Positions 34,229 through 60,600 of a DNA stretch of 64,000 nucleotides are shown in pieces. The notes beneath the pieces were generated by a model. It searched no databases and was not told the origin of the DNA. It was given only the letters and a program-made list of their open reading frames with translations. Both the position numbers and the translations under genes were made by a program. The DNA comes from Methanobrevibacter millerae (GTDB lineage Archaea; Methanobacteriota; Methanobacteria; Methanobacteriales; Methanobacteriaceae): contig NZ_FMXB01000007.1 of assembly GCF_900103415.1 (NCBI RefSeq), forward strand, positions 1-64,000. The letters are read 5' to 3'. Each line of letters begins with the position of its first letter. Within the stretch, counting starts at the first letter, position 1.

Positions 34229-37200
34229 ATGAATAGAAAGCATTTATTTATTATTTTATGCTTGTTTATGGTGTTTATTTCTACATTATCTCTTGCTTTT
34301 GCGGCGGATGATGCTGTAGATTCAACAATTTCTGCACCTGTTGAAGATACGCCAGTTATTCAAGCAGCCAATACACAAGAAGATATTCAGGCGAGCAGTC
34401 CTGAATCATTTACGCAACTGGATAATTTAATCCAGAATACGCCGTTGAACGGAACCGTTAAGTTGGGTAATAATTATACCTACTCGGGAGGTGGTGATAC
34501 CGGCCCTATTCTTATTAACAAAGACATAACGATTGATGGGGACGGATACACTATTGATGGTGCTGGTTCTTCATCGATTTTCCAAATAACGAATAATGCG
34601 CATGTTGTACTGAAAAATCTGGTATTTAAAAATGCGCGGGGAATCAATGGTTCAGCAATTAGCATGACTTCCGGTGAATATGTGGAGATTAATAATACGA
34701 CATTTATTAATAATTCTGCTATAAACGGGGGTGCGATTTATATTTCTTCGAATTCTTCTACTGTAAACTTCACTATAAGCATTGTTAACTCAACTTTCAT
34801 TAACAACAATGCTACAAATGGTGGAGCCATTTATGTTGGCGGTACTTTAATAAGTATAACCTCGTCTGATTTTAAATACAATACCGCTACCAATGATGGT
34901 GGATCAATGTACATGGATGCTGGTGGATCTATTAGCAAAAATAGATTCGAACATGAAAAAGCAGGCCGTGATGGAGGAGCAATTTACTTGAATAGTACAC
35001 TTAATTCCTCTTCAATAAATTCTAGTGTACTTACTAAATTAGGTTTATTTGATAATGTAATGTCATACTGTACTGCTGGTCGTGATGGTGGTGCAGGTTT
35101 CTTTAATGCAACTCATGGAACTATTAATAATTTAACATTAAATGGTAACGTAGCTAAACGTGATGGTGGTGGTATAGTATGGTTATGTTCAAATACTGGT
35201 ATAGTTCAATCTAATATATTTAATAATACTGCGGGACGTAATGGTGGAGGTATTTATTTATATCCTCCTACATTATCATCTATATATGATGCTGCTGTTG
35301 TAATCATGTATACTAATTTTGCAAATAATACTGCTGGTGTAAATAATACTACAAAAGGTAATGGTGGTGCTTTATACTGTGGTGGTATATTTGCTGTTGT
35401 ACTTAATTCTACATTTGAATGTGATACTGCATATGATGGTGCAGGTATATACTTAGATGTTGTTGCTGCTATTAATTACTGTACATTCAATATGGAAAAT
35501 GCTACTCATGATGGTGGTGCAATATATTTCTATGCAAGTAATACTAATATTCCACAGTCAAATAAATATATTGAGAGGATTATGCAAAATGGTGGTGTAA
35601 GACATTCTAACATTACTAATTGTATTGCTGGTCATGATGGTGGTGCTGGTTATGTATATGGTAATTATGGTATAGTTCAAAATGTTACCATGATTAACAA
35701 TACTGCAGGTAATGATGGTGGTGCTGGTTATGTTGTAGGTAATTATGGACAACTATTTGACAGTCATTTCATTAATAATACTGCAGGTAATGATGGTGGA
35801 GCATTGCTATGGGAAGGAGTAAATGGTACTATCAATAATATTCATGTTATTAACAATAAGGCAAAGATAATGGGTGGAGGTTTATCCTTAGATGCTGCTT
35901 CTTCAAAGGGTAATATTTCTATTGCTAATGCTACTTTTGCATATAATAATGCTACATATGGTGGTGCTATTTATTGTGCTAATATGTTTACTAGTATTTT
36001 GAATTGTAACTTTACTTTTGACACGGCTGTTGATGGTGGAGGTATCTATCTGGATTATGGTGCTTATCTTTATAATATTACTTTGATTAATGAAAGTGCG
36101 GACCGTGATGGTGGTGCCATATTTCTTAATTCTTCTAATACTATTTTGGATCCTGCCGTTTTAAAAGAGCTTTTAGCTAATGATAAGGTTGGTTTGATTG
36201 ATTCTTTAATTGTTAATTGTAGTGCTGGTCATGATGGTGGTGCCGGTTATGTTTATGGTGATTATTGTGTTGTAAAGAATGTTCCGATGTATAATAATCG
36301 TGCGGGCAATGATGGTGGTGCCGGTTATATTGTCGGTAACAATGGAATATTGGTTGGTGGTAGTTTCATTAATAACACTGCCGGTCGTGATGGTGGTGCA
36401 ATGCTCTGGGAAGGTGTTAACGGTACTGTTAGCAATATTGAGGTTATTAACAACACAGCAACTAATAATGGTGGAGGTATGTCTTTGGATGCTGCTTCCT
36501 CACAGGGTACTATTTCCATTTCCAACTCCAAATTCATTTTAAATAAAGCTTTTTATGGTGGTGGTGTTTACTGTGCGGGTATGTTTACCAGCGTATCGGA
36601 TTCATACTTTGCAAGCGATAATGCTTCTTATGGTGGAGGTATCTATCTGGATTATGGAGCATATATCCATAATGTTACAATGTTCAATGAAAGTGCTGTT
36701 TTTGATGGTGGAGGTATATATCTAAACTCTTCAAATACTGCACTTGATCCGGTTATCTTGCAGCAGCTTATGCTTGACAATAAGGTTGGTGTGATTGATT
36801 CTGTAATTCTTAATTGTAATGCAGGTCGTGATGGTGGTGCCGGTTACGTATACGGTGATTATGGTATTGTAAACAACTTGACCATGGTTAACAACTATGC
36901 AGGTCGTGATGGTGGTGCAGGTTATGTATTCGGTAACTTTGGTCAGTTATCCAACAGTACTTTCATTAATAACACTGCTGGTAATGATGGTGGTGCACTG
37001 TTATGGGAAGGAGTTAACGGTACAATTAAAAACATTACTGTAGTTAAAAATAAGGCAACCCGTAACGGTGGGGGTATTTCTCTCGATGCAGGTTCCGCTA
37101 AAGGTATAATTTCAATTGACGAGTCTTCATTCTCATCAAATGAAGGTAGTTTCGGTGGTGCGATTTACTGTGCTAACATGTTTACAAACGTATTGAATTC

Positions 37201-40200
37201 CAATTTCGCACACGATAGTGCTGAGTACGGTGGTGGAATCTATCTGGATTACGGTGCTTATATTCACAATACTACGCTCTTTAATGAAAGCGCTGAATAT
37301 GATGGTGGAGGTATTTATCTTAACTCTTCAAACACTGATTTAGATCCTGTCGTTTTACAGCAGTTAATGCTTGAAAATAAGGTTGGTGTGATTGATTCTG
37401 AAATTGTCGGCTGTCGTGCTGGTCGTGACGGTGGTGCCGGTTATGTATACGGTAACTACGGTGTTGTAAACAACTTGACAATGATTAATAACTATGCTGC
37501 CCGTGGTGGTGGTGCCGGTTATGTATACGGTAACTACGGTCGTCTATATAATTCAACCATGATTAATAATACTGCTGGTGATGATGGTGGTGCACTGTTC
37601 TGGCAGGGTAATGGTGGTACAGTAGTTAACATTACTTGTAGGGCTAACTTAGCAGGTGATGTAGGTGGATCAATTTTCATTTTCGGTTCTAACTTAACAT
37701 TCACAAACTCCAAATTTATGCTTTCAAATGCTACAACAAATGGTGGAGCCATTTATATTTATGGAAACAATGTTTTAGTTAATGATTCTTCATTTGATAA
37801 ATGTAGTGCTAATAATGAGCATGGTGGTGCTATTTATGCTGCCGGTTTAAACACAACAATTTCAAAATCAATTTTCACAATGAATAGGGTTAATGTCACA
37901 GCTGAAGCCCATGGTGGATCTATTGATGTTCAGGGTAATAACACTCATATTTTAGATTGTACTTTTGAGAAATGTAATGCGTTTGAAGGGGGTGTTGTTT
38001 ATGTCAGCGGTTCCAATGCTGTTTTAGAAAATCTCTCATGTATCTACAGTTTCGCAACGAAAGGTGGTGCTTTCTATATTGAAGGTGATGACGCTACCCT
38101 TTCAAATATTAATGCTTCACACAATAACGCTACAGATTATGGTGGAGCTATTTACATTTCAGGTAATAATGCTTTAATTACTGAATCCGATTTAGAAAAA
38201 TGTATCGCTTATGAAAAAGACGGTGGAGCTATTTATGTCGCCGGTTTAAATGCTGTAATTTCCGAGTCCAATTTTGTTCAGAATAGGGCTGACGGCGCTG
38301 AATCCCGCGGTGGTTCCATTAATGTTCAAGGTAACGATACCAAAATCCTCAACTGTACTTTCGACATGTGTACCGCTTACGAGGGTGGTGTTGTTTATAT
38401 TTACGGTTCCAACGTATTGATTGACGGATATTCCTGTAACCGCAGTTTCGCATCAAACGGAGGTGCAATTTACGTTATGGGAGACCATGCAACAATCGCT
38501 GACTTTAACATGTCATACACTAACGCCACTGACTATGGTGGTGCAATCTACATTGCAGGTGACTTTGCAACAATCGACAATTCAAACTTCACAAGATGTA
38601 TCGCATACACTAAAGACGGTGGAGCATTATTCATTTCCGGTTCAAACGCTACAGTTTCAAAATCAAACTTCGTTGAAAATAAGATAACCGGTGATGACGC
38701 TTGCGGTGGTTCCATTTACATTGAAGGAGATGGAGTTACCCTTGACGAATGTTACTTTACCAGATGTTCCGCTGTTGACGGCGGATCAATTTATGTAGCA
38801 GGTGACGATACAGAAATTTACAATTCTGCATTCATGATGACCCTTGCTGAAAATGATGGTGGAGCCATTTACCTCGGTGGTGTAAACGGCCATATCCACA
38901 ATTCCACTATCGGCTTTTCCAATGCTACCCGTGGTGGTGCAGTATTCATTGAAGGTAACAACTCATTGATTGAAGCTGATTTCGAAAAGTGTTTCGCTTC
39001 CAATAAGGGTCTTCCTTTAGTTTCATCAGCCGGTGGTGCAATTTACATCGAAGGTAATGAAAACGAGATTAAGGATTCCACTTTCAATACTGTTGGAGCC
39101 ATTGGCGGTAACGGTGGAGCAATATTCATTGAAGGTGATGACAATACGGTCAATAACATTACAACCCATACCACAATTGCCGTTAGAAACGGTCCGGGCT
39201 CTAAAGGTTACGGTGGAGCAATATTCATTTCCGGTGAAAACGCTAAAATTATGGACGCTGACTTTGAAACATTCTCAGCTTCAGAAAACGGTGGAACTAT
39301 CTATGTAGAAGGAGACAATGCAAACATTTTGGATTCCACTTTCAGATACGGTTCAGCCAAGGACGGAAATGCTATTTATGTTGAAGGTTCAGGCACTCTG
39401 GTTAACGGCTCCAGCTTTGCTAATATTGGTGCAAGTACACATGAGTCTATTAATCCTTCCACTTTAGGCGGTTGTATTTACGTTGCAGGAAATGACACTG
39501 TAATTACATGCAGTAACTTTACCCATACAAATGCAGGTAACGGTGGTGCCATTTACGTTGCTGGTGAAGGAACAGAAATTTCCCATGATTCTTTCGTTGA
39601 AACCAACGCTGTCAACGGTGCAGGTGTTTACGTTGCAGGAAACAATACCAATATTTTAGATTCCACATTCATTAGAATGAGTGTTACAGGCATTGGTGGA
39701 GCGATTTATTTAGGTGGTTCCAAATCCAGTGTTAAATCATCTAAATTCAGCTTTACAAATGCCACTTCAGGTGGTGCAATATATATTGACGGTAACGAAT
39801 CATTTATTGAAGGCAGCTTCGATCATTGTTTCTCCGTATCAAAAGATGATAATGTATCTTCCGGTGGTGCGATTTTAGTAGAAGGTAATGACGCTACCAT
39901 TTCCAATTCCAGCTTTGCATTTTCAATGGCTGAGGATTACGGCGGATGTATCTTCGTAGAAGGTAAAAATGCTATAATCACTGAAAGCAGATTTGAAAAC
40001 TGTAGTACAACTGGTAAATTTGGCGGAGGTGCAGTTTCTGTAAAAGGTTTCAACGCTACAATTTCCAATTCCAATTTCACAAGAAATATGGTAAACATTT
40101 CCAACAATGCTCACGGTGGAGCTATTGATTTACACGGTGATGAAGCGAAAGTTTTAAGATGTGATTTCGATTACTGTATGGCTTATAACGGTGGAGCCAT

Positions 40201-42667
40201 CAATGTGGAAGGTAAGGATGCAGTTATTGACGATGTTTTCGTTACCCACACTTCCGCTTACAACGGTGGGGGCGCTATTTACGTTGCAGGTGACGACGCA
40301 ACCATTTCCGGTTCCAGAATGACCTTAAACAATGCTACAAATTACGCTGGAGCGGTTTATGTTGAAGGTGAAAATGCCGTTATTGAAGGTACTACTTTCG
40401 ATAAATGTTCAGCTATTGTTGAAAATGGTGGAGCTCTTTACATTTCAGGTTTCAACGCTACAGTTTCAAATTCCAACTTCACATACAATTCAGCTAACGC
40501 AAGTGATGCACAGGGTGGAGCTATCTACATTGAAGGTAACGATACAAAGATTTTAAATTCCAACTTTGATTTCTGTGCAGCTTCAGAAGGTGGAGTTCTC
40601 TACATCAGCGGTGATAATGCGGTTATTGACGAATCCACTTTCACACACAGTTCAGCCTGGAATTATGGCGGGGCACTTTACGTTGCAGGTGATAACGTAA
40701 TTATTTCAAACTCAAACATGACTTTAAACAACGCTACCAATCATGGTGGATCACTTTATGTTGCAGGTAACAATACAAATATTAAGGGCAGTGCATTCCA
40801 AAAATGTTCTTCAGTTAACTTGGATGGTGGTGCTATTTATATCAGTGGTTTAAACACGACTATTTCCGATTCATACTTCAACAGAAACTCCGCTAACGGT
40901 ACTGATACTAAAGGAGGTTCCATTTACATTGAAGGTGAAGGAACTAAAGTTTTAGGTTCCGTCTTTGAAATGTGTATTGCAACCGACGGTGGAGTTATGT
41001 ACATTGAGGGAGATAATGCGGTCGTTGACAATTCCACATTCACTTACAGTACTGCATTTAACAGGGCAGGTGCCCTATATGTTGCAGGTGACAATGCCGT
41101 AATTTCCGGTTCCGCATTCGATTACAACAACGCTACGAATTATGGTGGATCCATTTACATTGCAGGTGACAATACCCAGATTATTGATGATTCATTCACA
41201 AGATGTTCCGTTAATTCCAAAAATGGTGGAGCACTTTATGTTGTTGGTTTAAACACAACCATTTCTGATTCTCACTTTACTTTGAACTCCGCTAATGCTA
41301 CTGGCGGTCGTGGAGGTTCCATAGATGTGGTAGGTGACGACACCAAGATTTTAAACTGTGACTTTATGAAATGTAGTGCAGACAATGGTGGAGTTCTTTA
41401 TGTAAACGGTTCAAATGCATTCATTGACAATGTTACAATAGAATTCAGTTCCGCTTACTCTGACGGTGGTGCAATGTATATTGCAGGTGACAATGCAGTT
41501 ATTTTAAATTCAAACATGACTTTAAACAACGCTTCAGACTATGGTGGAGCAGTTTATGTTACCGGAGCCAATGCTTTGATTAACAACACAATCTTTGATA
41601 AATGTTCTTCCAATAACTATCATGGTGGAGCCATTTACGTCTACGGTTTAAACACTACCATTTCATATTCCAACTTCACAAGAAACTCAGCAAACGGTAC
41701 AGGTGCTCACGGTGGTGCAATTGATGTTCACGGTAACGACACGACAATCTATAAATGTCTCTTCGACAGCTGCAGTGCTTACGATGGAGGAACACTTTAT
41801 ATTCGTGGTGAAGGTACTGTAATTGAAGGTATGGAATTTATACGCAGTATCGCACTCCATAACGGTGGTACAATCTATATTTTAGGTAATAACGTAACAA
41901 TATCCAATACAAGTTTCATACTCGGTAATGCAACCAATGGTGGTGCCATTTACGTTGCAGGTAACAATTCCAACATTACAGGTTCATCTTTCAAATTATG
42001 TATTGCAAAAGATCAGGGTGACGGTGGAGCTATCTATATTGAAGGTTTAAACGCTACAGTAGAGAATTCTCTATTTAATATTACCCAATCCACTACAGGT
42101 CGTGGTGGAGCTATTTACATTGAAGGTCAAGGCGCTGACATTTTAAATTCAACGTTCACCAGATCCAATTCCACTTCAGGTGGAGTTATCTATATTCAGG
42201 GTGATGATACTCACGTTTTAGACTGCGATATGAGCTTCTCCTCTTCCAATATTGTTCCGAACGCTACCGGTATGGGTCGTGGAGGTGCTTTGTTCGTTGC
42301 AGGTAACAATGCAGTAATTTCATCTGATTTCAGATTCACAAACGGTACTGGTGGACCGGGTTATCCTGGTAACGGTGGTGCAATTTATGTAGCAGGTAAT
42401 AATACGAACATTACTAAGTCTTCATTCTTTACTGTTATTGCGAAAAACGGTGGTGACGGTGGAGCTATCTATATTGAAGGTATTAACGCTACCGTTGAGA
42501 ATTCTGAGTTCCTTGTTACTCAGTCCGCCCGTGGTCGTGGTGGAGCGTTATACATTGCAGGGGACAATGCAACAGTTATTAATTCTGATTTCGTAAGGGC
42601 AAATTCAACGCCGGGGGTGTTATCTATATTGAAGGTGATGATACCAAGGTTCTTAATTCCTCAATGA
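34229..42667 (+). CDS. Giant adhesin-like protein, N-terminal part (signal peptide and beta-helix repeats), ends at a frameshift
   Basis: 2,812 residues as read. Residues 1-27 are a signal peptide (RKHLFIILCLFMVF, cleavage likely after LAFA). The rest is right-handed parallel beta-helix, built from repeats with GGAIY, NSxF and NNxA patterns like polymorphic membrane protein and pectate-lyase-fold adhesins. It is rich in Asn, Gly and N-x-S/T sites. Higher-order periods are 597 bases (35,630-37,600) and 399 bases (37,841-38,700 and 40,046-42,450). The frame ends with a non-repeat tail (TPGVLSILKV...IPQ) because of a one-base loss at the G-run 42,613-42,617. The repeat pattern then continues in the next frame. 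As written, the product would be secreted without its anchor. Confidence 0.9.
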   Translation: MNRKHLFIILCLFMVFISTLSLAFAADDAVDSTISAPVEDTPVIQAANTQEDIQASSPESFTQLDNLIQNTPLNGTVKLGNNYTYSGGGDTGPILINKDITIDGDGYTIDGAGSSSIFQITNNAHVVLKNLVFKNARGINGSAISMTSGEYVEINNTTFINNSAINGGAIYISSNSSTVNFTISIVNSTFINNNATNGGAIYVGGTLISITSSDFKYNTATNDGGSMYMDAGGSISKNRFEHEKAGRDGGAIYLNSTLNSSSINSSVLTKLGLFDNVMSYCTAGRDGGAGFFNATHGTINNLTLNGNVAKRDGGGIVWLCSNTGIVQSNIFNNTAGRNGGGIYLYPPTLSSIYDAAVVIMYTNFANNTAGVNNTTKGNGGALYCGGIFAVVLNSTFECDTAYDGAGIYLDVVAAINYCTFNMENATHDGGAIYFYASNTNIPQSNKYIERIMQNGGVRHSNITNCIAGHDGGAGYVYGNYGIVQNVTMINNTAGNDGGAGYVVGNYGQLFDSHFINNTAGNDGGALLWEGVNGTINNIHVINNKAKIMGGGLSLDAASSKGNISIANATFAYNNATYGGAIYCANMFTSILNCNFTFDTAVDGGGIYLDYGAYLYNITLINESADRDGGAIFLNSSNTILDPAVLKELLANDKVGLIDSLIVNCSAGHDGGAGYVYGDYCVVKNVPMYNNRAGNDGGAGYIVGNNGILVGGSFINNTAGRDGGAMLWEGVNGTVSNIEVINNTATNNGGGMSLDAASSQGTISISNSKFILNKAFYGGGVYCAGMFTSVSDSYFASDNASYGGGIYLDYGAYIHNVTMFNESAVFDGGGIYLNSSNTALDPVILQQLMLDNKVGVIDSVILNCNAGRDGGAGYVYGDYGIVNNLTMVNNYAGRDGGAGYVFGNFGQLSNSTFINNTAGNDGGALLWEGVNGTIKNITVVKNKATRNGGGISLDAGSAKGIISIDESSFSSNEGSFGGAIYCANMFTNVLNSNFAHDSAEYGGGIYLDYGAYIHNTTLFNESAEYDGGGIYLNSSNTDLDPVVLQQLMLENKVGVIDSEIVGCRAGRDGGAGYVYGNYGVVNNLTMINNYAARGGGAGYVYGNYGRLYNSTMINNTAGDDGGALFWQGNGGTVVNITCRANLAGDVGGSIFIFGSNLTFTNSKFMLSNATTNGGAIYIYGNNVLVNDSSFDKCSANNEHGGAIYAAGLNTTISKSIFTMNRVNVTAEAHGGSIDVQGNNTHILDCTFEKCNAFEGGVVYVSGSNAVLENLSCIYSFATKGGAFYIEGDDATLSNINASHNNATDYGGAIYISGNNALITESDLEKCIAYEKDGGAIYVAGLNAVISESNFVQNRADGAESRGGSINVQGNDTKILNCTFDMCTAYEGGVVYIYGSNVLIDGYSCNRSFASNGGAIYVMGDHATIADFNMSYTNATDYGGAIYIAGDFATIDNSNFTRCIAYTKDGGALFISGSNATVSKSNFVENKITGDDACGGSIYIEGDGVTLDECYFTRCSAVDGGSIYVAGDDTEIYNSAFMMTLAENDGGAIYLGGVNGHIHNSTIGFSNATRGGAVFIEGNNSLIEADFEKCFASNKGLPLVSSAGGAIYIEGNENEIKDSTFNTVGAIGGNGGAIFIEGDDNTVNNITTHTTIAVRNGPGSKGYGGAIFISGENAKIMDADFETFSASENGGTIYVEGDNANILDSTFRYGSAKDGNAIYVEGSGTLVNGSSFANIGASTHESINPSTLGGCIYVAGNDTVITCSNFTHTNAGNGGAIYVAGEGTEISHDSFVETNAVNGAGVYVAGNNTNILDSTFIRMSVTGIGGAIYLGGSKSSVKSSKFSFTNATSGGAIYIDGNESFIEGSFDHCFSVSKDDNVSSGGAILVEGNDATISNSSFAFSMAEDYGGCIFVEGKNAIITESRFENCSTTGKFGGGAVSVKGFNATISNSNFTRNMVNISNNAHGGAIDLHGDEAKVLRCDFDYCMAYNGGAINVEGKDAVIDDVFVTHTSAYNGGGAIYVAGDDATISGSRMTLNNATNYAGAVYVEGENAVIEGTTFDKCSAIVENGGALYISGFNATVSNSNFTYNSANASDAQGGAIYIEGNDTKILNSNFDFCAASEGGVLYISGDNAVIDESTFTHSSAWNYGGALYVAGDNVIISNSNMTLNNATNHGGSLYVAGNNTNIKGSAFQKCSSVNLDGGAIYISGLNTTISDSYFNRNSANGTDTKGGSIYIEGEGTKVLGSVFEMCIATDGGVMYIEGDNAVVDNSTFTYSTAFNRAGALYVAGDNAVISGSAFDYNNATNYGGSIYIAGDNTQIIDDSFTRCSVNSKNGGALYVVGLNTTISDSHFTLNSANATGGRGGSIDVVGDDTKILNCDFMKCSADNGGVLYVNGSNAFIDNVTIEFSSAYSDGGAMYIAGDNAVILNSNMTLNNASDYGGAVYVTGANALINNTIFDKCSSNNYHGGAIYVYGLNTTISYSNFTRNSANGTGAHGGAIDVHGNDTTIYKCLFDSCSAYDGGTLYIRGEGTVIEGMEFIRSIALHNGGTIYILGNNVTISNTSFILGNATNGGAIYVAGNNSNITGSSFKLCIAKDQGDGGAIYIEGLNATVENSLFNITQSTTGRGGAIYIEGQGADILNSTFTRSNSTSGGVIYIQGDDTHVLDCDMSFSSSNIVPNATGMGRGGALFVAGNNAVISSDFRFTNGTGGPGYPGNGGAIYVAGNNTNITKSSFFTVIAKNGGDGGAIYIEGINATVENSEFLVTQSARGRGGALYIAGDNATVINSDFVRANSTPGVLSILKVMIPRFLIPQ
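35540..37590 (+). repeat. 597-base (199-residue) beta-helix module, about four copies
   Basis: The marker encoding GHDGGAGYVYG or GRDGGAGYVYG starts at 35630, 36227, 36824 and 37421, exactly 597 bases apart each time. A second marker (LDPxxL) at 36149, 36746 and 37343 shows the same spacing. The first copy is the most divergent. Confidence 0.88.
37841..42450 (+). repeat. 399-base (133-residue) beta-helix module, two blocks
   Basis: The segment encoding GLNTTIS or close variants begins at 37841, 38240 and 38639 (399 apart), and again at 40046, 40448, 40847, 41246, 41645 and 42044 (402, then 399 four times). The stretch between the blocks (about 38,700-40,040) has the same short repeat but no clear 399-base period. 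Confidence 0.85.
42613..42617 (+). other. G5 run marking the frameshift that splits the giant adhesin
   Basis: Upstream the frame reads ...NSTPG then VLSILKV; the beta-helix pattern (GGVIYIEGDD) continues from here in the +1 frame. One extra G gives T-P-G-G-V-I-Y-I-E-G-D-D, like the neighbouring copy at 42,175-42,210. With that base the joined frame 34229-61062 is exactly 8,945 codons. The first frame stops with TGA at 42665-42667, which overlaps an ATG at 42664. Confidence 0.85.
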
Positions 42668-45600
42668 TGTTCTCATCTTCCAATATCCTTGAAGGATGTA
42701 CCGGTGACGGTAACGGTGGAGCTTTATACATTGCAGGGGACAATGCGATTATTTCAGCTGATTTCAGATTCAATAATGCTACAGGTAACGCTTCTGGTAA
42801 CGATACAGGTAAAGGTGGATCACTTTATGTTGCAGGTAATAACGTAACAATTACAGAGTCCACATTCTTCACGACATGTGCAAGGGATGATGGTGGAGCA
42901 TTATACATTACCGGTCAAAACGGTAAGTTATCCAATTCCACATTCACAAATAACTTTGCAGGTGACGACGGAGGAGCAATCTACTGGGAAGGTAGCAACG
43001 GTACAATATACAATATCACATGTAACGACAACAGAGCTATCAGTTCAACAGGTTCTTCAAACGGTGGTACTATCTGTATTACAGGTTCAAATGTTACTGT
43101 TGACAAATCAAGCTTCAATAAAACTCATGCATTGATTTCAGGTGGAGCAATATTTGCTACAGGTAACAATGTAACCATTTCAGACACTTCATTTGCAAAC
43201 TGTAACGTTTCAATGGAGATTGCAGATACCGGTAAAACCTATGTGAATGGTGGAGGAGCGATTTACGTATTGGGTAACTCATCCAACATTATAAACTGTA
43301 CATTCGAAAACACAAACGGCCGTGAAGGCGGAGCCCTTTATATTCAGGGAAACAACGTAACGATTGAAAACATAACTTCCACTTCCACTAATGCGAAAAA
43401 CGGTGGTTCCATTTACGTTTCAGGTCAAAACGCAATGATTCTTGATTCAAACATTACCCAAGCTCACGCTACAAGCGACGGTGGTGGATTGAACATTGTA
43501 GGTAACCACGTGGAAGTAATTAACTGTACTGTTGAAGACTGTACTTCAGGAAGTAAAACAGAATTGGGTAACGGTGCAGGTATTTATATATCCGGTAATG
43601 GTGTAGATATCGAGGATTCAAGATTCAAAAACTGTGTTGCACCGTTCGAAGATTTAGATGCTGAAAAAGGTTCCCAGGGTGGAGCTATTTACGTTGCAGG
43701 TAATGATGTTGAAATTATAAATGACACAATCGAAGAATGTCTTGCATATCAGGCCGGTGGTGTCTACATTTTAGGTAACAACGCTTTAATCAACATGTCC
43801 AGTTTCACTTCAAACAACGGTTCAGATGACGGTGGAGCACTCTACGTTGCAGGTCAAAACGGTTCAGTATACAATTCAAACTTCACCCACAACATTGCAG
43901 GTGACGACGGTGGTGCAATCTACTGGACAGGAAGCAACGGTTTCATGTATAACATCACATGTAACGATAACAAGGCTATCAGTTCAACCGGTAATTCAAA
44001 CGGTGGTACAATCTGTCTAACAGGTTCAAATATTACAATTGACAAATCAAGCTTCAATAAAACCTATGCATTGATTTCCGGTGGAGCCGTATTCATCACG
44101 GGTAACTATATTAACATTACAGACACAACATTTACGAACTGTAATGTTTCAATGGACATTGAAGAAACCCATAAGGATTATGTGAATGGTGGAGGAGCAA
44201 TCTATGTATTGGGTAACAATACCTATCTTTTAAACTGTTCCTTTGAAAACAACAATGCTCGTGAAGGCGGATCAATTTATATTCAGGGAAATGATGTAAA
44301 AATGGATAGATTAAAAGCTACGGACAATTATGCTAAAAACGGTGGTACCATTTATGTTGCAGGTGAAAATGCAAACATGACTAATTCTAATATAACCCAA
44401 TCCCATTCAGAATACGGTGGTGCAATATATATTGAAGGAGACTTTGCATACATATTCATGTCTGACTTTACTAACAATAATGCCAGCGGTAAAGGCATAA
44501 CCTCCTGTGGTGGAGCAATCTATATCAGAGGTGCCAACACCAATATTCTCAGGTCATACTTCTTAAACGATACTGCTATCGGCGGAGACGGTGGTTCCAT
44601 ATATATCGGTGGTTATAACGCAAACATTGAAAAATCAAACTTTAAAAACTCCAACGCTTATGACGGTGAAGGGGGAGCAATTTTCGTTGCAGGTAACTTG
44701 GCACATGTCCACGATTCAACATTCAACCAAACTCAGGCAGGAGACGGTGGTGCTATTTATATCGGTGGATTCAGAACAGGGGAAGATGCAAAAATCCTCA
44801 ACTGTACCATAACAAACAGTATAGCAACCGAAGACGGTGGTGCAATTTACATTGCTGGTCAAAACGCACTGATTTCTGTTGACGTCTCTGACACTAAAGC
44901 TGCAGGTTTAAAAAATAACACAGGATACGGTGGTGCTATTTACGTCGGTGGAGACGATGCAAACATTACTGTATCTTCATTCAACAACTGTAGTGCCGGA
45001 GTCAACGCATCCGGTGGTGCTATTTACGTTGAAGGGGATTACGCAAACATTGAAAAATCAACATTCAACAATACCTATGCAAAAGACGGCGAATTGGCTT
45101 CAGGTGGAGCTATTGCAATTGAAGGAAACATGGCTGTTGTAAGCGATTCCAACTTCACTGAATGTTTCGCATATAACGGTGGAGTATTATTTGTTGAAGG
45201 CCGTAGGGCAACTCTCCTCAATTCCAATGTGAGTGACTGTTATGCATACTCCTATGGTGGAGCTATCTATATTCTGGATGGTGAAAAGACACGTATCGAG
45301 GCTTCCAACTTTGATAACTGTACTTCCATTACAACCGAAGGTGGTGCAATATTTATCGACGGTGACTTTACTGTCGTCTTGAATTCCAATTTCACGAACT
45401 GTAACGCTTCCTCAAAAGATGGACTTGGTGGAGGTATTTACATCTTGGGTGAAGAGACAAGCATTCAAAACGCAACATTCGACAGATGTACGAGTGTTGA
45501 CGGTGGTGCAATTTATATTGAAGGTAATGACGCCCATATTTCCGATTCCAATTTCATCGGCAATGTATTGGTGAATTATACTGATGATGACAATTACGGT

Positions 45601-48600
45601 GGAGCTATTTACATAAATGGTGAGCGAACAGTCATTTCCACTTCAACATTTGAAAACCACTCCGCATATACCGGAGGATCTGTCTACATCAACGGTACGG
45701 ACACAACCATTTTGGATTCCGATATCAACAATTCCACTGCAGAATACGGTGGAGCAGTCTTTATCCAAGGTCTTAATGCTAAAATTAAAGGTGGAGATAT
45801 AAGCAACTGTTCCTGTAAATATGACGGTGGAGCTATTTATGTGAACGGTACCAATGCAGAAATTTCAGCCGATTTCGTAAACTGTAACGCAAGTTCAATA
45901 ACAACTCCTGATATTAAAGGTAACGGTGGTGCAATTTATGTAAACGGTACCAATACAAACGTGCACGATTCCACTTTCCTCAACTGTACTGCAATGAATG
46001 GCGGTTACGGTGGAGCTATTTATATTGAAGGAGTAGATACCACTGTTCAAACTTCCAGATTCGAGAATACTAAAACCAGTGATGAGGGTAAAGGAGGAGC
46101 AATTTACATTGAAGGTTCAAGAGCTACCGTTACGACTTCCGAATTTATCAATACTCATTCCCGTGAAGGTGGAGCTATTTATATTGAAGGTATTAATACC
46201 ACTGTAACTGACACGGTCTTTACTGAAACTAATGTAGGTACAGCCTCTTACTGGGGAGATTCCAGTTATAGTGGTGGTGCAACTGATTATACAGCCCCTA
46301 TTGCAGGTAATGGTGGAGCAATCTATATTTGGGGTCCAAATACTTATATTAAAAATGCTACAATTGATTCAAGCTATGCTACACAGCGTGGTGGAGCCAT
46401 TTATGTTGAAGGACATGATGCGAAAATATCCGCCAATATTCATGAATCTCATGCAGGTTTAACTGACACGTCAACTAACTTTAATGTAAATAATCCTGAT
46501 TATAAAGTTGATGTTCAAGAAATCAGAAATATGCTTAATGATATGGTGTCAACCTACGCTGTGAATGTTACAATTTACAACGATAATCTTTCTACAATCA
46601 AGAATAATGCAAAATCTGCTAGAGATGATCAAAACAATAAGGTTGATAATATACTTAATAATAAAAATGTATTTAATCAAGCTGTCTTTGATGCAGTTTT
46701 AGCGAATGTACTTGAAATCAATACTACATTGTCCTATTTGGAAAGTGAATCTCCATTAATTTATGATTCATTGATTGGCTATTATAATAATATTTATGCT
46801 GATTTAATTGAAATTAACACTAGTAGGGATTGGAATGAATTTAATGGACATATTAGAAATGATATTAGAAATAACTTAACTGCTATTATTAAATTTGTAG
46901 ATTATTGCAATGAGTTAGGTGGTGATTTAGGAAGAGGTAGTAATGATGCAAAATATCTACAGAATAATGATAAGACTTATGCTGCTGTGAATAGTAGGCT
47001 TGTAAAACTCCAAGACTATTATGAAGAGTTTAAAGGCGATATAAATAATTTAATCGGATATAACTCCGGATTTAATTATCTGGTAGATTATAATGAAGCA
47101 TTTGGCATTCAAGTAAATAAAACATATGACTCTGTTAATGCGCTACACGATCAAGGAATTAAGGGAGAAGGTGGTGCTATTTATGTGAACGGTACCAACA
47201 CTTTAATCTACGATTCCATCATGTCCAAAACTCATGCGGATAATAACGGTGACGGTGGTGCTGTATTTGTTGCAGGTGTAAACACTACAGTAAGGGATTC
47301 CTCTTTCGATGAATCTAAAGCTACTGATGGTGGTGCTGTTTATGTAACCGGTAGTGAAACATCTATTATGAATTCCAATTTCACTAATACCATTTCAACA
47401 AATAATGGTGGTGGAATTTACGTTGCAGGACACAATACTTATATCTCAGGAGATTCATTTGATAAATCTAAAGCGCAGGGAACTGATGCTACTGATGGTG
47501 GTGGAGCTATGTATATCGTTGGAGATGGAACCTATGTTTCAGATTCTAACTTCACATTATCAGACTCCAGTAGATATGGTGGTGCAATATATATAGCAGG
47601 TAAAAATACGGATATTCTCAGATCCAATTTCATACAGAACCATGCTTCATCTCCTGGTGGTGCAGTATACATTCAATCCAATTTAGGTTTAAATACTACT
47701 GTAGATGATTGTTACTTCTTTGATAACAGTGCCGGAGGCTCTGGAGGAGCATTGCACGTTTCAGGTACAAACACTACAGTAAATAACACTGTTTTCATAA
47801 AAAATCATGGTGTATCTTGGGGTGGTGCTATTTATATTAATGGTATTAATGCAACCGTACAATACACTAATTTAAGTGAAAATACCGCTTCTTCTAATGG
47901 TGGAGCTATCTACTGGCAGGGTGGTCACGGCGGAGATTCAATTATCGGATGTATTATCTTTAATAACAGTGCTACCTCATATGATTCTGCTTTAGGTGGA
48001 GGTGTATTCTGGAGTGTTGGTAATGATGTTACTCCGGGTGGTTTAGTAAAAGACACAATCTTTGACAGCAATTATGCCGGAAAACACGGTGGAGGTATGG
48101 ACTGGTACCGTACTGTAAACAGTACTATGGAAAACTGTACTTTCATTAATAACGTTGCCGGTAAAGACGGTGGTGGTTTCTACTGTGGTGATACTTCTGC
48201 ATTTGAAGTAAGTACAAACCTTACTTTAATTAATTCAAAATTCATTAATAATACTGCTAACTATGCTGGTGGGGGAGCTTCCATTCAGATGAGGTCTTCT
48301 CATATTGTAAATTGTCTTTTCGACGATAATATAGCATACTTCGGCGGATCCATTGTTATTAAAGATTCAAAAACTACATATAATGAAATTATTAATTGTA
48401 CTTTCATCAATTCTACTGCAAGTACCACTTTCATTAATTCCACGGTCCAATCAATTATTGATCATTATAAAGATTTAGATGAATTCTGTAAAGGTAAAGG
48501 TGGAGCGATATTCGCTAGAGACAATTATATTTCAGTTATAAACTCAACTTTCATTGACGGTAATGCTAAATACGGTGGAGCAATATTCTGGGATGGTGGT

Positions 48601-51600
48601 GAGAATTATCAAAGTACTGATCCTTCTAAAAAAACTGGTACTTTAGGTATTGGTGGCGTAATAAACAATTCAACTTTCATTGGAAACAATGCTACTCAGG
48701 GTGGAGCTGTCATGTGGACCAGTCCTGACGGAATAATAGCTAACTCAACTTTCAGAGGAAATAATGCAAGTGAAGGTGGTGCTGTCTATTGGAAAGGTGG
48801 AGTTGAATACATTGCATACGCCTGGAATTATAAAGATACATTTGCAATCCACGGTAATAACGGTAAAGTTGTCAATTCCGAATTCAGTGAAAATACCGCA
48901 ACAAAGGGTGGTGCTATCTACTGGACTGCTGAAAAAGGTAATGTTTCCAATTCAGTATTTACAGATAACTATGCTGAACTAGGTGGTGCCATCTACTGGC
49001 AAAACATCACTGAAACAGCAAATACTGGAAATCGTGCAATTTACTACAAAACAGCATCAACCGGTAGAAACGGTGTTGTCGAGAATTCCACATTCTTCGC
49101 CAACAAAGCTAATTATGACACAGGTAAAGGAGGAGCTATCTATTGGAACACTTCCTCAAGTAACATTACGGATACAACTTTCCTGAACAATACTGCAAGT
49201 AATGGTGGAGCTATTTACTGGGTAAACGGTACTAAAGTAGATAATTCAACTTTCAGATTCAACAAAGCTCATACAGGTTCTGCAATGTATTTCGATTCAT
49301 CCATGAAGGAAATGGATATCATCGATTCATCATTCTTGGAAAACAGGGCAGATTCCAACAGATTTGAAGATTTTAAAGTTGAAAATATTACAAATGGTGC
49401 TTCTACAACCGGTGTTCGTGTAAGCGCATACTTCATAGGAAACGACAATATTATTAATGCAATGTATAACAATGGCGGTGAAGTTTACTTCACTAATGTA
49501 GATTATCTTGGTGTCGATGGCACTCCTGCTCCTGTTATAAATAACACTGGTAATAGTCGTGTAACTCCTGTAAAAATCAGTACTGTACCTCCTAATTCAA
49601 ATACATTCTATCAAACCGATTATGAAAAAGGTCAGATTGTTAAAATAGTCATGTATGACCTAAACGGTCTTGTTTATGATGGTACTTTAATAACAGATGA
49701 TTATGGTAAAGTTTCATTAGAACAAAGTGGATTGGATGACTCAGTCAAAATGAAAATGGAACATCCTGCAGATGATTATTACACTTATCTTGGTATAAAT
49801 CATAATATTCAAATGGTATTTATAGATATTGAAACTGCAGACATCGAATGTCTTGATGACGAAATCATTAATCTTACGGTGTACCCTCAAAATAAATCTG
49901 AGACTAGAGCGCCTACGCGCAATCTTACAGTAAAGGTTATCGGAGATAATGGATTAACATATGAAGTAAATGTTACACTAACTCCTGTTGAAAATACAAA
50001 TCGTTCTATTGCACAGGTTACTGTTCCTAAATGTCCAACTGGCTATTATTCAGTTATGGTGCATTATTATGGTGATGATTATTACATTGAACATGATAAT
50101 TCATCTTCATTTAGAGCAAGAGGAACAGATCCTACAATCGTTATCGATACTGAAGACATCTGGGTTGGCCAGATGGAAATAATCAACATTACCGTTGACC
50201 CAACCAAAAAAGTAACGGGTAACGTATCAGTATATATTGACAGCGTATATTTCGGAGACTTGCCTCTTGTCAACGGAACCATACAGATTAGGGATAATAC
50301 ATTCCCTGTCGGACGCCATAACGTCATTGGAATCTATAACGGTGACGAGCACTTTAAGCTTGTACGTAACACATCCAGTTTCTTGGTTAAAAAATACACT
50401 CCATACTTTGTAATACATGCTCAGGACATTCTGGTAGACCAAACCGAATTTATTTGGATTGAACTTCCTAAAAACGCTACTGGATTTGTCTATCTTAAAG
50501 TAAACGGCGAACCGTATTACATTAATTTAACTGCAGGTGAAAGAAACATAACCCTTCCTGCATTCGCTCATGACGGCATATATGACGTTTGGGGTAATTA
50601 CTCCGGTGACGGTTACTGGAACAGTGTAATTAACACGACTCAATTCAGAGTTTCAAAACATAACATTACCCTGAATATCACGGATGTAGTCAAAATCTAT
50701 GGCGAATCCGAAAAGGCCAATATAACCTTCAATGTAACGGATGCGACGGGTAATGTGACAATCAAGATCAATGGTACTTTAAAGGTATATGAAAATGTTA
50801 CAATAGTCGGCGGTAAAGCAACGGTTGACATAAGCGGTCTGGATCCTGGAAATTACACCATGGAGGTAATCTATCTGGGTGACAGGAAATATAATGGAAA
50901 TACAACTTCCGGAAAACTTACCGTTAAAAGGGCAAAAATCCCTATCTATGTTGATACCTATAACATCTACTATGGTGAAAAGGAACATATTATAGCCCAT
51001 GTAAACACTACAGGATCTGTGACATTTAGGCTAAACGGTACTGTAATAGGTGATGATAGTCTCGCTAGAGGAGTTGCAGAATATGATACCAGGAACGATT
51101 TACTGCCTGGAATCTACACGGTCAACGCAACCTTCAGCGGAAATAAATATTATGAACCTGGATGGAACATTTCCACTTATGAAGTATATAAATTAAACAG
51201 AACTATCGTTTTAAATGTTTACGATATCATTTACGGAAATCTTGAAGAGTTAAGGGTATTTGTAAATGCAACAGGTAATGTAACCATTAAAGTTAATGGT
51301 ACTGAAAAAACTATTGTGCTTGACGTTGAACAATATGGAGCTATTGACAGAGGAAAAGCTTCCTGGATTCTAGAAGGTTTGGATGTAGGTACCTATCCTG
51401 TTGAAGTAACTTACAATGGTAATAATATTTATAATCCTAACAGCACCAGCGGAGTATTCCGTGTAATTCCACTGAATACTACTTTGGATGTCAGAGTCCA
51501 TGACATTTACGTATGGGATAGTGAATATCTCAACGTGACTGTAAAAGACTTACAAGGAAAGGTTATTAAAGACGCTCCTGGAAACATTACAATCACTGTT

Positions 51601-54600
51601 AACGGAGTAACTTACAGTGAAAAGTTATATAACGGTGTTGCTAGATTCGTAATCCCTGGATTAAGCGTAGGTTATAAGGATGTCTGGGCATTCTATGACG
51701 GAGACAAAAACCATGTAGGAAACAGATCCGACGCTTCATTTGTTGTCAAACAGAGAGTACCTCCTGTAAGCGTTGAAGGCGAAGACATCAAAGTCGGACA
51801 AGTCGAAACGATTCATGTGAAGATTCCTGCAAACGCAACAGGATTCGTAATCATAACCGGTAACTTCTCCAAAAACGGAATCTACGTAGCTAACTTTGAA
51901 AACGGCATGGCAGACATTCCGGTTTATAACTTGGCTAACGGAACCTACAGCGTACACATTAAATATTATGGAGACGCTCTTGACAACTACACAACGGCCG
52001 AAGCCAGCGATACATTCACTGTATCCAAAAACAACACTCCAATCAATATTGAAGTAGAAGACATCTTCTACAAGGAAATAGCCAATATTACGGTAAGCGT
52101 TGACAATGATGCTACAGGCCTGATAACGGTCAAGGTCGTTAACGGAAGCGGTGTTGTTAAAGAGGCCACATTGCCGATAATGAACGGCAAAGTCAACTTG
52201 CTTGTTGATAATCTGGCTGTCGATACATACACGGTTTATGCAAACTACTCTGGAAACTACAAGTACAACGTAAATCAAACCAGCAAAGCATTTAAAGTTA
52301 AAAAGATTGCTCCTGTTATCACAATTGATTCAGTAGAGACAAATTCAATTAGAAATGCAACCGTAGTTGTTCACATTACTCCTGGAACTACCGGAAACGT
52401 AACGATTACAGTTAACAATAAGCAATACTCAAGTAAAATCGAAAACGGTGTTGCAACATTTGTCATTGATCAATTGAATTCAGGCAATTACACGGTTTAT
52501 GCAGATTATCCTGGTGACAGAAACTTCACGGATGCTCATACCCACAAAGACAATGCGGTAAACATATTCAGATACTCATGCTATGTAATGAACGTCACTG
52601 CTGAAGACACTAAGGTTGATTTAAATACTACAATCATTGTAAATGTTCCTTGCGATGCTGTGGGCGAAGTGGCAATCTATATCAACGGTTCATTCATTGC
52701 TAATGTGCCTGTCGATAATGGCGTTGCAAAATTAAACGTAACTAAATCAATATATGGTAAATACGTAGTTAACGCAACATTCATGGACGGCAAATACGCC
52801 AACAAGACAGTAACTACCAATTATCATGTATTCAAATGGGATACTCCGATGATAATCAATGTCACTGACATTTATGTTGGAGACATCGAAACAATCGTTG
52901 TAAGTGTTCCTGATGACATTAAGAATAACGTAACTATTGAAATAGATGGAAAAACATACTCCGGCAAAGTAATTAACGGTAACGCAACATTTAAGGTAGC
53001 TAACTTGACTTACGGAAACAAGACGGTTACTTCAATCTATGGCGGCAACTACAAGTACCTCTTCAATGCTACTACAAATAACTTCACGGTTTACAAACGT
53101 CCATCTACATTAATTGTTAACACAACAGAAATTCATGTTGATGATGTTGCAATAATTAACGTAACGGTTCCTCAAAACGCTACTGGCTATGTTATTGTCA
53201 GCGTAAATGGAACGAACTATACAGTAAACTTAACCGGCGGCAAAGGTTCTCTGTCAGTTCCTGGTCTTGACTCAGGAATCTATAACATTAATGCAACCTA
53301 CCTCGGTGATGAACAGTACCTGTCAAGCGTCAACTCAACAACATTGAAAGTATCCAAAGTGCCTTCAACAGTATCTGCACATGCGGATAACATTACTGTC
53401 GGTGAAAAGGCAATCATTGAAATAATCGTTCCTGCTGATGCTACAGGCAACGTGACAGTTACTTTGGACCATAAGGATTATAACGTATCTGTTGGCGGCG
53501 GTAAAGGAATTCTTGTTGTTCCTGGCTTGAAAGTCGGAAATTACACTGTTGATGTCAAGTATCTCGGTGACAGGAAATATGAGGATAGCAGTAATGCTAC
53601 TAAATTCAGCGTAAATAAAATTAAAACTGATATGGAAGTCATTGATAACGGTAACGGAACTGTTACTATTGTTATTCCTGGTAACGCAACCGGTAACGTG
53701 ACTGTTGTTGTTGAAAATAAGACGTTCAACGGAACTGTGGTCAACGGCTGTCGACTCTTGACTAATGTAACTCCTGGTGTTCACAATATTACCGTAATCT
53801 ATTCCGGTGATGAAAACCACACAAGCGAAATCATTAATGCGACCGTAACGGTTCCAAGGTTCTTCACTCCTATTAAAGTTTATGTGGCCGATATTTATGT
53901 AGGTGATGTTGCTTTAATCAATGTGACTGTTCCTGTTAATGCTACTGGCAAGATTAGAATTGAGATTGATGGTAAGGAGTACTTCTATCCAATTGAAACA
54001 GGAATTGCAAGATTTGCTGTTGAAAACCTCACTGCAGGTGTAAAAACTGTTTATGTCTCATACAGGACTGACGGTAATTACTCAAGCAATTCCACTTCAG
54101 GCAATTTCACAGTTAAAAAACACATTCCTGTTGTTACTGTTGATACGACAGATATTAATGTTGGAGATATTGCGGTAATTAACGTAACCGCTCCAGTTGA
54201 CGTTACAAAACCTCTTGTCGTTAATGTTAATAATGTTGACTATTCAGTAAACGTAACTAATGGTATCGGTCAATTGAATGTCTCCGGTTTAGATAGCGGC
54301 AAATACAACGTAACTGTCAAATACCTCGGTGATGACAAATACTTAACTGGAAGCAATGATACTAGCTTTACTGTATCCAAAGTGCCTTCAACAGTATCTG
54401 CACATGCGGATAACATTACTGTGGGTGAAAAGGCAATCATTGAAATAATCGTTCCTGCTGATGCTACAGGCAACGTAACTGTAACTTTAGACCATAAGGA
54501 TTATAATGTATCTGTTGGCGGCGGTAAAGGAATTCTTGTTGTTCCTGGCTTGAAAGTCGGAAATTACACTGTTGATGTCAAGTATCTCGGTGACAGGAAA

Positions 54601-57600
54601 TATGAGGATAGCAGTAATGCTACTAAATTCAGCGTAAATAAAATTAAAACTGATATGGAAGTCATTGATAACGGTAACGGAACTGTTACTATTGTTATTC
54701 CTGGTAACGCAACCGGTAACGTGACTGTTGTTGTTGAAAATAAGACCTTCAATGGAACTGTTGTTAACGGTACTGTTACGATTAACTTGACTAATGTAAC
54801 TCCTGGTGTTCACAATATTACCGTAATCTATTCCGGTGATGAAAACCACACAAGCGAGATCATTAATGCGACCGTAACGGTTCCAAGGTTCTTCACTCCA
54901 ATCAGCGTTAACGTTACTGACATTTATGTTGGAGACATTGCTAAGATTAATGTGACTGTTCCTGTTAATGCTACCGGTAAAATCAGAATTGAAATTGACG
55001 GTAAGGAGTACTATGAAGACATTATTGGTGGCATTGCAAGGTTCAATATCGCAAACCTGACTGCCGGTGTAAAAACGGTTTATGCATCATACAGAACTGA
55101 CGTCAATTACTCAAGCAATTCCACTTCAGCCAAATTCATGGTATTCAAGTATCTTCCGGTAATCACGATTAATGCATCAGACATTACCGTTGGAGAAGTC
55201 GAATACATTAACGTAACTGCTCCTGCTGATGTAACAAGACCTGTAATCGTCAGTATCGGCGGTGTTGATTATTCAGTAAACGTTACCAATGGTATCGGTC
55301 ACTTGAATATCTCTGACTTGGGCGGCGGAAAATACAACGCAACTGTCAAATACTTAGGTGATGACAAATATCTGGCTGCAAACAATACAACCAGCTTTAC
55401 AGTATCCAAATTGCCTTCAACAGTATCTGCACATGCGGATAACATTACTGTCGGCGAAAAGGCAATCATTGAAATCTATGTTCTCGCTGACGCTACCGGA
55501 AACGTAACAGTAACTTTAGACCATAAGGATTATAACGTACCTGTTGCTGGCGGTAGAGGAACTCTTATAGTTCCTGGCTTGAAAGTCGGAAACTACACAG
55601 TTGATGTCAAATACCTTGGTGACAGGAAATATGAAGAAAGCAATAATGCTACTAAATTCAGCGTAAATAAAATCAATACTCAAATGGAAGTTATTGATAA
55701 TGGTAACGGAACTGTTACTATTGTTATTCCTGGCAATGCAACAGGCAATGTGACTGTTAAGGTTGAAAATAAGACATTCAACGGAACTGTTGTTAACGGT
55801 ACTGTTACCATTAATTTAACGAACGTAACTCCTGGTGTTCATAACATTACCGTAATCTATTCCGGTGATGACAACCACACGAGTGATATCATTAATGCGA
55901 CCGTAACGGTTCCAAGGTTCTTCACTCCAATCAGCGTTAACGTAACTGACATTTATGTCGGAGACATTGCTAAGATTAATGTGACTGTTCCTGCAAACGC
56001 TACAGGCAAGATCAGAATTGAAATTAACGGTAAGGAGTACTATGAAGACATTATCGGAGGAGTTGCAAGGTTCAATATCGCAAACCTGACTGCCGGTGTT
56101 AAAACGGTTTATGTATCATACAAGACTGACGGCAATTACTCAAGCAATTCCACTTCAGCCAACTTCACGGTATTCAAGTATCTTCCTGTAATCACGGTTA
56201 GTGCTATTAACATTACGGTTGGAGAGCTTGAAATAATTAACGTAACCGCTCCTGCTGATGTAACAAGACCTGTAATCGTCAGTATCGGCGGCGTTGATTA
56301 TTCAGTAAACATTACCAATGGTATCGGTCAGCTGGAAGTCCATGACTTGGGCGGAGGTAACTACAACGTAACGGCCAAATATTATGGTGATGACAAATAT
56401 CTGGATGCATCTAATAAAACCAGCTGTGTAGTGTACAAATTGCCTTCAACAGTATCTGCACATGCGGATAACATTACTGTCGGCGAAAAGGCAATCATTG
56501 AAATCAGTGTTTTAGATGATGCTACTGGAAATGTAACTGTAACTTTAGGAGGCAAAGATTATAACGTAACTGTTGGCGAAGGCAAAGGAATTCTTGTTGT
56601 TCCTGGATTGAAAGTCGGAAACTACACAGTTGAAGTCAAATATCTCGGTGACAGAAGATACGATGAAAGCAGCAATACCACTAAATTCAGCGTAAACAAA
56701 ATGTCCGGAGGCATGGAAGTAATTGATAACGGTAACGGAACTGTTACAATCATCATTCCTGGAAACGCAACTGGTAACGTAACTGTTATAGTTGAAAATA
56801 AGACATTCAACGGAACTGTTGTCAACGGCACAGTTACAATCGAGCTGACTAACGTAACTCCTGGTGTTCACAACATTACCGTAATCTATTCCGGTGATGA
56901 CACCCATGAAAGTGAAATCGTCAATACGACCGTAACGATTCCTCTAATTCTTACTCCGATTAAGGTCTATGTTGAAAACATTTATGTCGGAGACATTGCT
57001 AAGATTAATGTGACTGTTCCTGTAAACGCTACCGGAAAAATCAGAATTGAAATCGACGGTAAAGACTATTATTCAGATATTGATGGCGGAGTTGCAAGAT
57101 TTAGGGTTGAAAACCTCACTGCAGGCATCAAGACGGTTGCCGTATCCTACGCAGGAGATCGCAACTTCACACGCAACTTCACAACCGCAAACTTCACGGT
57201 ATTCAAGCATAAACTGACAGTTACTGTCGATGCAGGAGACATAATCGTTGGTGATGTCGCATTAATTAATGTAACGGCTCCAATTGACGTTACAAGGCCT
57301 GTTGTCGTTAACGTTGCCGGCGTTGATTATGCAGTAAACATAACTAACGGAATCGGACACTTGTCTGTCTACTATCTGGGCGGCGGCGAATATGTGGTAA
57401 CCGCAAAATACCTTGGTGACGATAAATACCTTACTGCCAACGATACTGCAAGATTTAAAGTATCCAAAATCCCTTCAACTGTTTCAGTTACTGCTGAAAA
57501 CATTACTTTCGGTGAAAAAGAAGTAATTCAAATAACAGTTCCTGCTGACGCTACCGGAAACGTAACGGTCACTGTGGACGGCAAAGACTATAATGTATCC

Positions 57601-60600
57601 GTCAGTGAAGGCAAAGGTATCCTTGTTGTTTCTGGCCTTAAAGTCGATAACTACACTGTTGAAGTCAAATATCTCGGTGACAGAAAATATGAGGAAAGCA
57701 ATAACGCAACTGCATTCACGGTCAAGAAGTTAACAACCGATGAGGTCATTGTAATCGACAACGGAAACGGAACGGTTACTGTTATTGTTCCTGGAAACTC
57801 AACAGGCAATATTACCATTGAAGTTGAAAATAAAACGTTCAATGGAACCCTGGTAAACGGCACGGTTACAATCGAGCTGACTAATGTAACTCCTGGCGAA
57901 CACAATATCACCGTGATCTACTCCGGCGATGAAAACCACAGTAACGCAACAGTCAATGCAACAGTAACGATTCCAAAACTCATTACTCCAATCAAGGTTT
58001 ATGTTGGAGACATTTATGTCGGCGACATTGCAAGAATCAACGTAACGGTTCCTGATGGTGCTATCGGCAGAATCAGAATTGAAATTGACGCTAAAGAGTA
58101 CTTCGCTCCAATCGAAAACGGAGTTGCAAGATTTGCTGTTGAAAACCTGACTGCCGGCGGAAAAACGGTTTATGTCTCTTATGTCGGAGACAACAACTAC
58201 ACCGGAAATCACACGTCAGGCAATTTCACGGTATTGAAGTACACTCCGGTCATTACGGTCACTGCATCTGACATCATTGTCGGAGACGTTTCATTAATTA
58301 ACGTAACCGCTCCAGCTGACGTAACAAGACCTGTTGTCGTTAATGTTGGCGGCGTTGACTATGCAGTTAACATTACTGGTGGAATCGGCCACTTGAATAT
58401 CACCGGTCTAGACGGCGGAGAATACGACGTAACCGCAAGATACCTTGGTGATGATAAATACGTGGCTGCTAACGATACTGCAAGCTTTAAAGTATCTAAA
58501 GTCCCTTCAACTGTTTCAGTTACTGCTGAAAACATTACTTTCGGTGAAAAAGAAGTAATTCAGATTACTGTTCCTTCTGACGCTACCGGAAACGTAACGG
58601 TCACTGTTGGTGGTAAAGACTACAATGTTTCAGTTTCTGAAGGCAAAGGCGTCCTTGTTGTCACTGGCTTGAAAGTCGGAAACTACACGGTTGAAGTCAA
58701 ATATCCTGGTGACAGAAGATATGAGGAAAGCGAAAACTCAACAGCATTCATTGTCAAGAAACTGAGCGCAGATGACATCAAGGTAATTGACAACGGAAAC
58801 GGCACTGTCACAGTCGTCGTTCCTGGAAACGCTACAGGCAACATCACGATAAAAATCGGAAACCAGACCTTCAACGGTACTGTAGTCAACGGAACAGCTG
58901 TTATTGAATTGACAAACGTAACTCCTGGCGAGCACAACATTACCGTAATCTACGGCGGAGACGAAATCTACTCCAACTCAACAGTTAACGGAACAGTAAC
59001 GATTCCAAGACTCACAACTCCAATCAAGGTTTACGTTGAAGACATTTATGTCGGTGACATTGCAAGAATCAACGTAACGGTTCCTGCCGGTGCTAGCGGC
59101 GAAATCAGAATCGAAATCAATGGTAAAGAGTACTTCGCTCCAATCGAAAACGGAGTTGCAAGATTCAATGTTGAAAACCTTACTTACGGTGTAAAAACGG
59201 TTGCAGTCACATACGGCGGTGATGAAAGCTACGTAGCTAACTTCACAACCGGAAACTTCACTGTATACAAACGCAATTCAGCCGTAAGCGCTGAAGTCGA
59301 AAGCGTCATTGTAGGCGAAATCGTAACGATTAAAGTCAAAGTCCCAACCGATGCAACAGGACAGGTACTGGTTGACATCGACGGAGTATCACAATACTAC
59401 GTAAATGTAACCGGCGGCGAAGGATTCGTTGACGTGCCTTACATACCAAGCGGAATATACGACGTCAATTTAACCTATATCGGTGACGACAAATACTTAT
59501 CAAGCACAAACAAAACAGTATTTGACGTCAATAAGGTCAAACCGTTCGTAATTCCAATTGCACATGACATTATCGTCGGCGAAAACGAAGTGATTAAATT
59601 AATCGTTCCTTCAGACGCTACCGGAAATGTAACTGTCGTAATTGATGGTCAGGAATACGTCTTTGACTTGAATGAAGGCACATTAGGCGCATACTACAAG
59701 GAAGGCGAAAAATACATCGTAGCCGTAAGCGGCGGAAACGGTGAATTGGTAATTGAAGGATTGCCTGTCGGCGAATATGTCGTAAGCGTAAGATACAATG
59801 GAGATCACAAATACACAACCGCAGACAACACGACAACATTCAAGGTACGTGACAGCAGCGATCTTGACATAATCGATTTAGGAAACGGAACTGTTGTCGT
59901 AAAAGTCCCTGGAAACGCAAGCGGTAACATTACAATAGTCGTTGAAAATCAAACCTATACTGCACCTGTAATAAACGGTACTGCAATAGTTGATTTAACC
60001 AACGTAACTCCTGGAGAGCACAACATTACCGTAATCTACTCCGGTGACGATACTCATGACCCTTCAGTTGAAAACGCTACAGTCAACATTCCAAAACTCT
60101 ACTGTCCAATAGACGTCGAAACCGAAAACATCCATGTCGGAGACGTTGAAGTCGTCAAGGTCACTGTTCCTAAAGACGCAACCGGTACAATTACAATTGA
60201 AATTGACGGTAAGGAATATACCAAACCGGTTAAAGACGGAAAAGCAGTATTTGAAGTTGAAGGATTGGAATTCGGTAACAAAACCGTTGCAGTTAAATAC
60301 TCAGGTGATGAAAGATACAGAGACAACTACACAACCGGGCAGTTTGAAGTAAACAAGCTTCCTACAACAATAACCGCAAAGGCTCATGACATCTATGTCG
60401 GAACCGATGAGATAATTGACGCCAAAGTGCTTCCGGAAGACGCAACCGGAAAAGTACTGGTTGACATTAACGGTGTTGGATACTATGGAAACATTACTGA
60501 AAACGGTATTGCAGGCATATTGATTCCTGAACTTCCAAGCGGAGAATACACAGCTATTGTAACCTATGAAGGAGACCACAAATACTTCCCAAGTACAACA

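Follow-up and report, generated by a model that had tools for sequence, protein, structure and literature searches.

A giant adhesin-like gene of the rumen methanogen Methanobrevibacter millerae is split into two reading frames beside a run of five G residues, raising the question of whether the break is a reversible switch of a surface protein, an ordinary loss-of-function mutation, or an error in the sequence record. The gene lies in the window, the whole 64,000-nucleotide stretch of DNA that was analysed. An initial annotation had described an adhesin divided between two frames, and this division is confirmed by the two open reading frames (ORFs) at 34229-42667 and 42664-61062 and by a continuous syntenic orthologue. 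The two fragments are the following.

34229..42667, + strand: upper fragment of the adhesin-like gene, 2812 aa, with a signal peptide, beta-helix repeats and about 18 out-of-frame residues ending in TGA
42610..61062, + strand: lower fragment, in the -1 frame, with beta-helix repeats (Chlam_PMP-type), a long Big_3_5 Ig-like array and, at the C-terminus, a hydrophobic anchor; its first ATG is at 42664

The two ORFs, one frame apart, each represent part of a single adhesin-like protein of 8,944 residues. With a single base added, 34229-61062 becomes an exact run of 8,945 codons, stop included, as the initial annotation had correctly calculated. Read from its first ATG, the lower ORF spans 42664-61062 and encodes 6132 aa; its frame is open from 42589, and the two frames share about 78 nt. 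The coding frames stand out clearly from the alternatives, with 127 and 351 stops in the other two frames of the upper region and 358 and 724 in those of the lower region. Judged by hydrophobicity only, the N-terminus of the upper product resembles a signal peptide, and at the C-terminus of the lower one a hydrophobic anchor precedes RRFKR. Signal peptide and anchor are both present only when the two halves are joined, and the termini of the two ORFs support the earlier proposal that a net loss of one base has left these elements on separate products. Pfam matches in the lower half comprise Chlam_PMP (6e-16) and Big_3_5 (down to 1.6e-182); the upper half has no Pfam match, and the GGAIYI repeat is visible in it as in the lower half. 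This GG-A-I-Y-I beta-helix repeat runs uninterrupted across the junction, and the two halves align to the same unbroken syntenic orthologue, indicating that the break is not a chance arrangement. No other stop or frameshift is found in the 26.8-kb gene. In the lower half, the beta-helix repeats are interrupted at 46450-47190 by a non-repeat insertion that is probably helical (KVDVQEIRNMLNDMV...NNAKSARDDQNNKVDNILNNKN...).

The syntenic adhesin of G003, an SM9-like closed genome of 2,543,538 bases, is a single uninterrupted ORF of 6,829 aa that spans both halves, and the genes flanking it on both sides match at 79-95% identity. Upper residues 1-2799 align to residues 1-2885 of this orthologue and lower residues 1-4679 to residues 2019-6773, ranges that overlap because the repeats resemble one another. 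Across the junction, the G003 sequence is FIRANST-A-GGFIYIEG, and the relative RUG11657 has two copies of the equivalent unit, each FVRANST-A-GGIIYI. In this comparison with orthologues, of the kind suggested in the initial annotation, both genomes read through the site in frame. Relative to SM9, dN/dS is about 0.2 in each half, indicating purifying selection on the gene until very recently, or still. The sampled contigs have 36-38% GC versus a published 31.8% for SM9, and DNA aligned to SM9 is only about 76-82% identical; the window's genome and SM9 may, therefore, represent different species. ORFs of the non-ribosomal peptide synthase family in the window's genome are 4192, 4392 and 2573 aa long, in agreement with the 4187, 4390 and 2573 aa published for the M. 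millerae type strain ZA-10 (PMC4987999), which is probably the strain analysed here.

The position of the missing base can be examined against these orthologues and against a copy of the junction repeat unit that occurs earlier in the gene itself. The features of the junction region are the following.

42143..42274, + strand: the gene's own earlier copy of the junction repeat unit (LNSTFTRSNSTSGGVIYIQGDD...), TRSNST-S-GGVIYI, with the frame intact
42609..42610, + strand: best-supported position of the missing base, the third position of the Thr codon in RAN-S-T-A-GG
42613..42617, + strand: G5 tract, GGG GGT in the lower frame, encoding the conserved Gly-Gly of the repeat
42664..42669, + strand: ATG ATG of an S-M-M motif, for which the intact equivalent in RUG11657 is S-S-M-M-Y-S-S-S-N

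A one-base gap was moved along the site, and mismatches were counted with respect to three references: G003, RUG11657 and the earlier copy within the gene. Placement at 42609/42610 leaves 9, 8 and 11 mismatches, respectively (sum 28), whereas the most favourable placement in or next to the G5 tract leaves 11, 9 and 11; the sums for positions there range from 31 to 34. Placing the gap inside the tract costs 1-2 more substitutions per orthologue, a modest margin drawn from three references that are not independent. At the codon level, the window reads GCA AAT TCA AC- GCC GGG GGT GTT, compared with GCC AAT TCC ACT GCC GGT GGT TTC in G003 and GCC AAT TCT ACT GCA GGA GGT ATT in RUG11657; because the orthologues read RANST-Ala-Gly-Gly, the gap is best placed before the G5 tract. 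On this alignment, the missing base would lie 3-4 nt upstream of the tract, and a position within it is disfavoured. The use of GGG GGT for Gly-Gly recurs at other G5 sites of the gene. The initial annotation, accurate as to the location of the tract, had placed the break inside it and proposed that an added G repairs the gene. One added base does restore the frame, but it need not be a G of this tract, which encodes a conserved Gly-Gly, and the gap is better accommodated just upstream.

The relation of the break to the G tract bears directly on the suggestion that reversible slippage in this run toggles a giant archaeal adhesin between on and off states across the population. Such phase variation would suit a surface protein whose frame breaks no more than 4 nt from the tract, and the substitution cost of moving the gap into the tract is small. 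The reading is nevertheless very unlikely, since the gap fits better outside the tract and the intact orthologues lack a G run at the junction site (GCCGGTGGT, GCAGGAGGT). In a census of contigs C7, C1 and C4 (501 kb), five-base G/C runs are common, numbering 105, of which the junction tract is an unexceptional example; 10 runs of six were counted, and G or C runs of at least seven were absent. The window holds 18 G5 tracts, fewer than the 58 predicted by dinucleotide shuffles. The tract also falls below the minimum of a published slippage screen, which considered a repeat as a candidate for phase variation only from a length of 7 nt upwards (PMC3711429), and the break lies 31% into the gene. 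No report of phase-variable adhesins in Methanobrevibacter was found in the literature, of which coverage was incomplete. G-tract slippage was rejected as the leading idea on the basis of the orthologue alignment and the homopolymer census. Less probable still is a pair of functional genes, in which reinitiation of the stop-start type at ATGA 42664-42667 would produce the lower protein, a possibility that the initial annotation had also considered. The TGA and ATG do overlap in the required order, but the ATG belongs to the S-M-M motif that the unbroken RUG11657 shares and that G003 partly keeps, no good Shine-Dalgarno sequence precedes 42664, whereas the true start has GAGGTTAT, and the product would be devoid of a signal peptide. 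A scan with a general Shine-Dalgarno pattern yielded 548 loose matches and was of no help in judging this. The TGA/ATG overlap at 42664 is incidental, and reinitiation was rejected on the poor Shine-Dalgarno match and the motif that explains the ATG. Programmed or tolerated -1 recoding, by ribosomal or transcriptional slippage, would yield some full-length protein, and it accords with both the direction of the required shift (-1) and the lack of decay in the gene. It is, however, the least probable reading of all: the frame overlap (42590-42667) contains no X XXY YYZ slippery heptamer, the RNA downstream folds only slightly more stably than its shuffles (z -1.68), and the orthologues are continuous and need no shift, such that the split-frame arrangement is not conserved. 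The missing heptamer and the unremarkable fold led to rejection of this candidate.

A recent strain-specific deletion of 1 nt, most likely a few bases before the G5 tract, is favoured, with about an even chance of being correct, and would make the locus a loss-of-function allele and not a switch. Ranking close behind, as a serious but lesser possibility, is an assembly or consensus error, under which the gene in the cells would be whole, encoding 8,944 residues, and the draft would have dropped one base. The M. millerae type strain, ZA-10, is represented by a 2.73-Mb draft from the Hungate1000 project (PMC4987999), for which sequencing was by Illumina or PacBio (PMC6118326). An error is made plausible by the draft nature of the assembly analysed here (2,720,712 bases in 48 contigs), several contigs of which end within adhesin Big_3_5 arrays. 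The longest exact repeat in the 501 kb, at 239 bp, is located inside the adhesin gene, and directly after it, at 53745-53756, three 2-nt gaps occur within about 18 nt (net -6, in frame), with NGCRLLTN replacing NGTVTINLTN; apart from these gaps, the copy nearly matches the unit that lies 1029 bp downstream. This cluster is possibly an assembly seam, resembling poor gap closure. An error is also consistent with the intact state of the relatives covering the site and with a second isolated single-base frameshift in the draft, T4 to T5 versus SM9, in an ABC transporter permease orthologue at C1:~105285; a consensus error would, moreover, look equally like a singleton frameshift. Conversely, the junction is locally unique, the longest exact repeat around the break being 23 nt, and repeat collapse is therefore no obvious cause. 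The best gap placement lies outside a homopolymer, and when 178 conserved genes (184 kb) were set against those of SM9, the permease was the one clear frameshift, which does not amount to a high error rate. The adhesin break is one of perhaps two frameshifts in about 210 kb, a frequency compatible with an ordinary background of true pseudogenes or occasional errors. A further frame change flagged at C1:55252-55976 was excluded from the count as an apparently spurious ORF. No other broken adhesins were recognised on the three sampled contigs; an adhesin ORF at 175759-179661 of C4 seemingly has no signal peptide, but its frame extends beyond the stretch examined and it thus provides no evidence of a break. 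If the deletion is real, its recency can be bounded: because the 26.8 kb contain no further disruption, neutral decay since the break is limited to about 0.3-0.4% substitutions per site, as estimated from the fraction of stop-creating substitutions.

Under the favoured reading of a real deletion, presumably present in the cells and not just in the assembly, loss of one base just 5' of the G5 tract would shift the frame of the giant adhesin gene, with upper translation predicted to end about 55 nt past the deletion. The expected outcome is a secreted, unanchored 2812-residue N-terminal fragment accompanied by little or no lower product. We infer the loss of the protein product, and the allele would then be a loss of function for one among the genome's many adhesins. 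In that case, the sequenced strain lacks one of its largest surface proteins, a point relevant mainly to strain-level adhesion work, whereas an error would mean that the sequence record needs correction. Whether the break is real or an error, the case for this locus as a candidate for archaeal phase variation is weakened.

Comparison with known systems places both the gene and its break in familiar categories. M. millerae SM9 encodes a giant adhesin-like protein, sm9_1600, of 7805 aa (PMC4987999), and the window gene shares with such Methanobrevibacter adhesin-like proteins a signal peptide, beta-helix repeats, a Big_3_5 array and a C-terminal anchor, differing in that, in the assembly, a single base divides it between two frames. 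The locus resembles homopolymer-slippage contingency loci in that a surface protein has a frame break near a G run, but is unlike them in its short tract, in a gap better placed outside that tract, and in orthologues that have no tract. A closer parallel is the singleton class of frameshifted genes in GeneTack, attributed to indel mutation or sequencing error (PMC3711429), with which the window gene shares one isolated transition and its absence from orthologues, and from which it shows no difference in the features compared. The break is, in these terms, an ordinary one-off, one-base frame break in an already known kind of gene.
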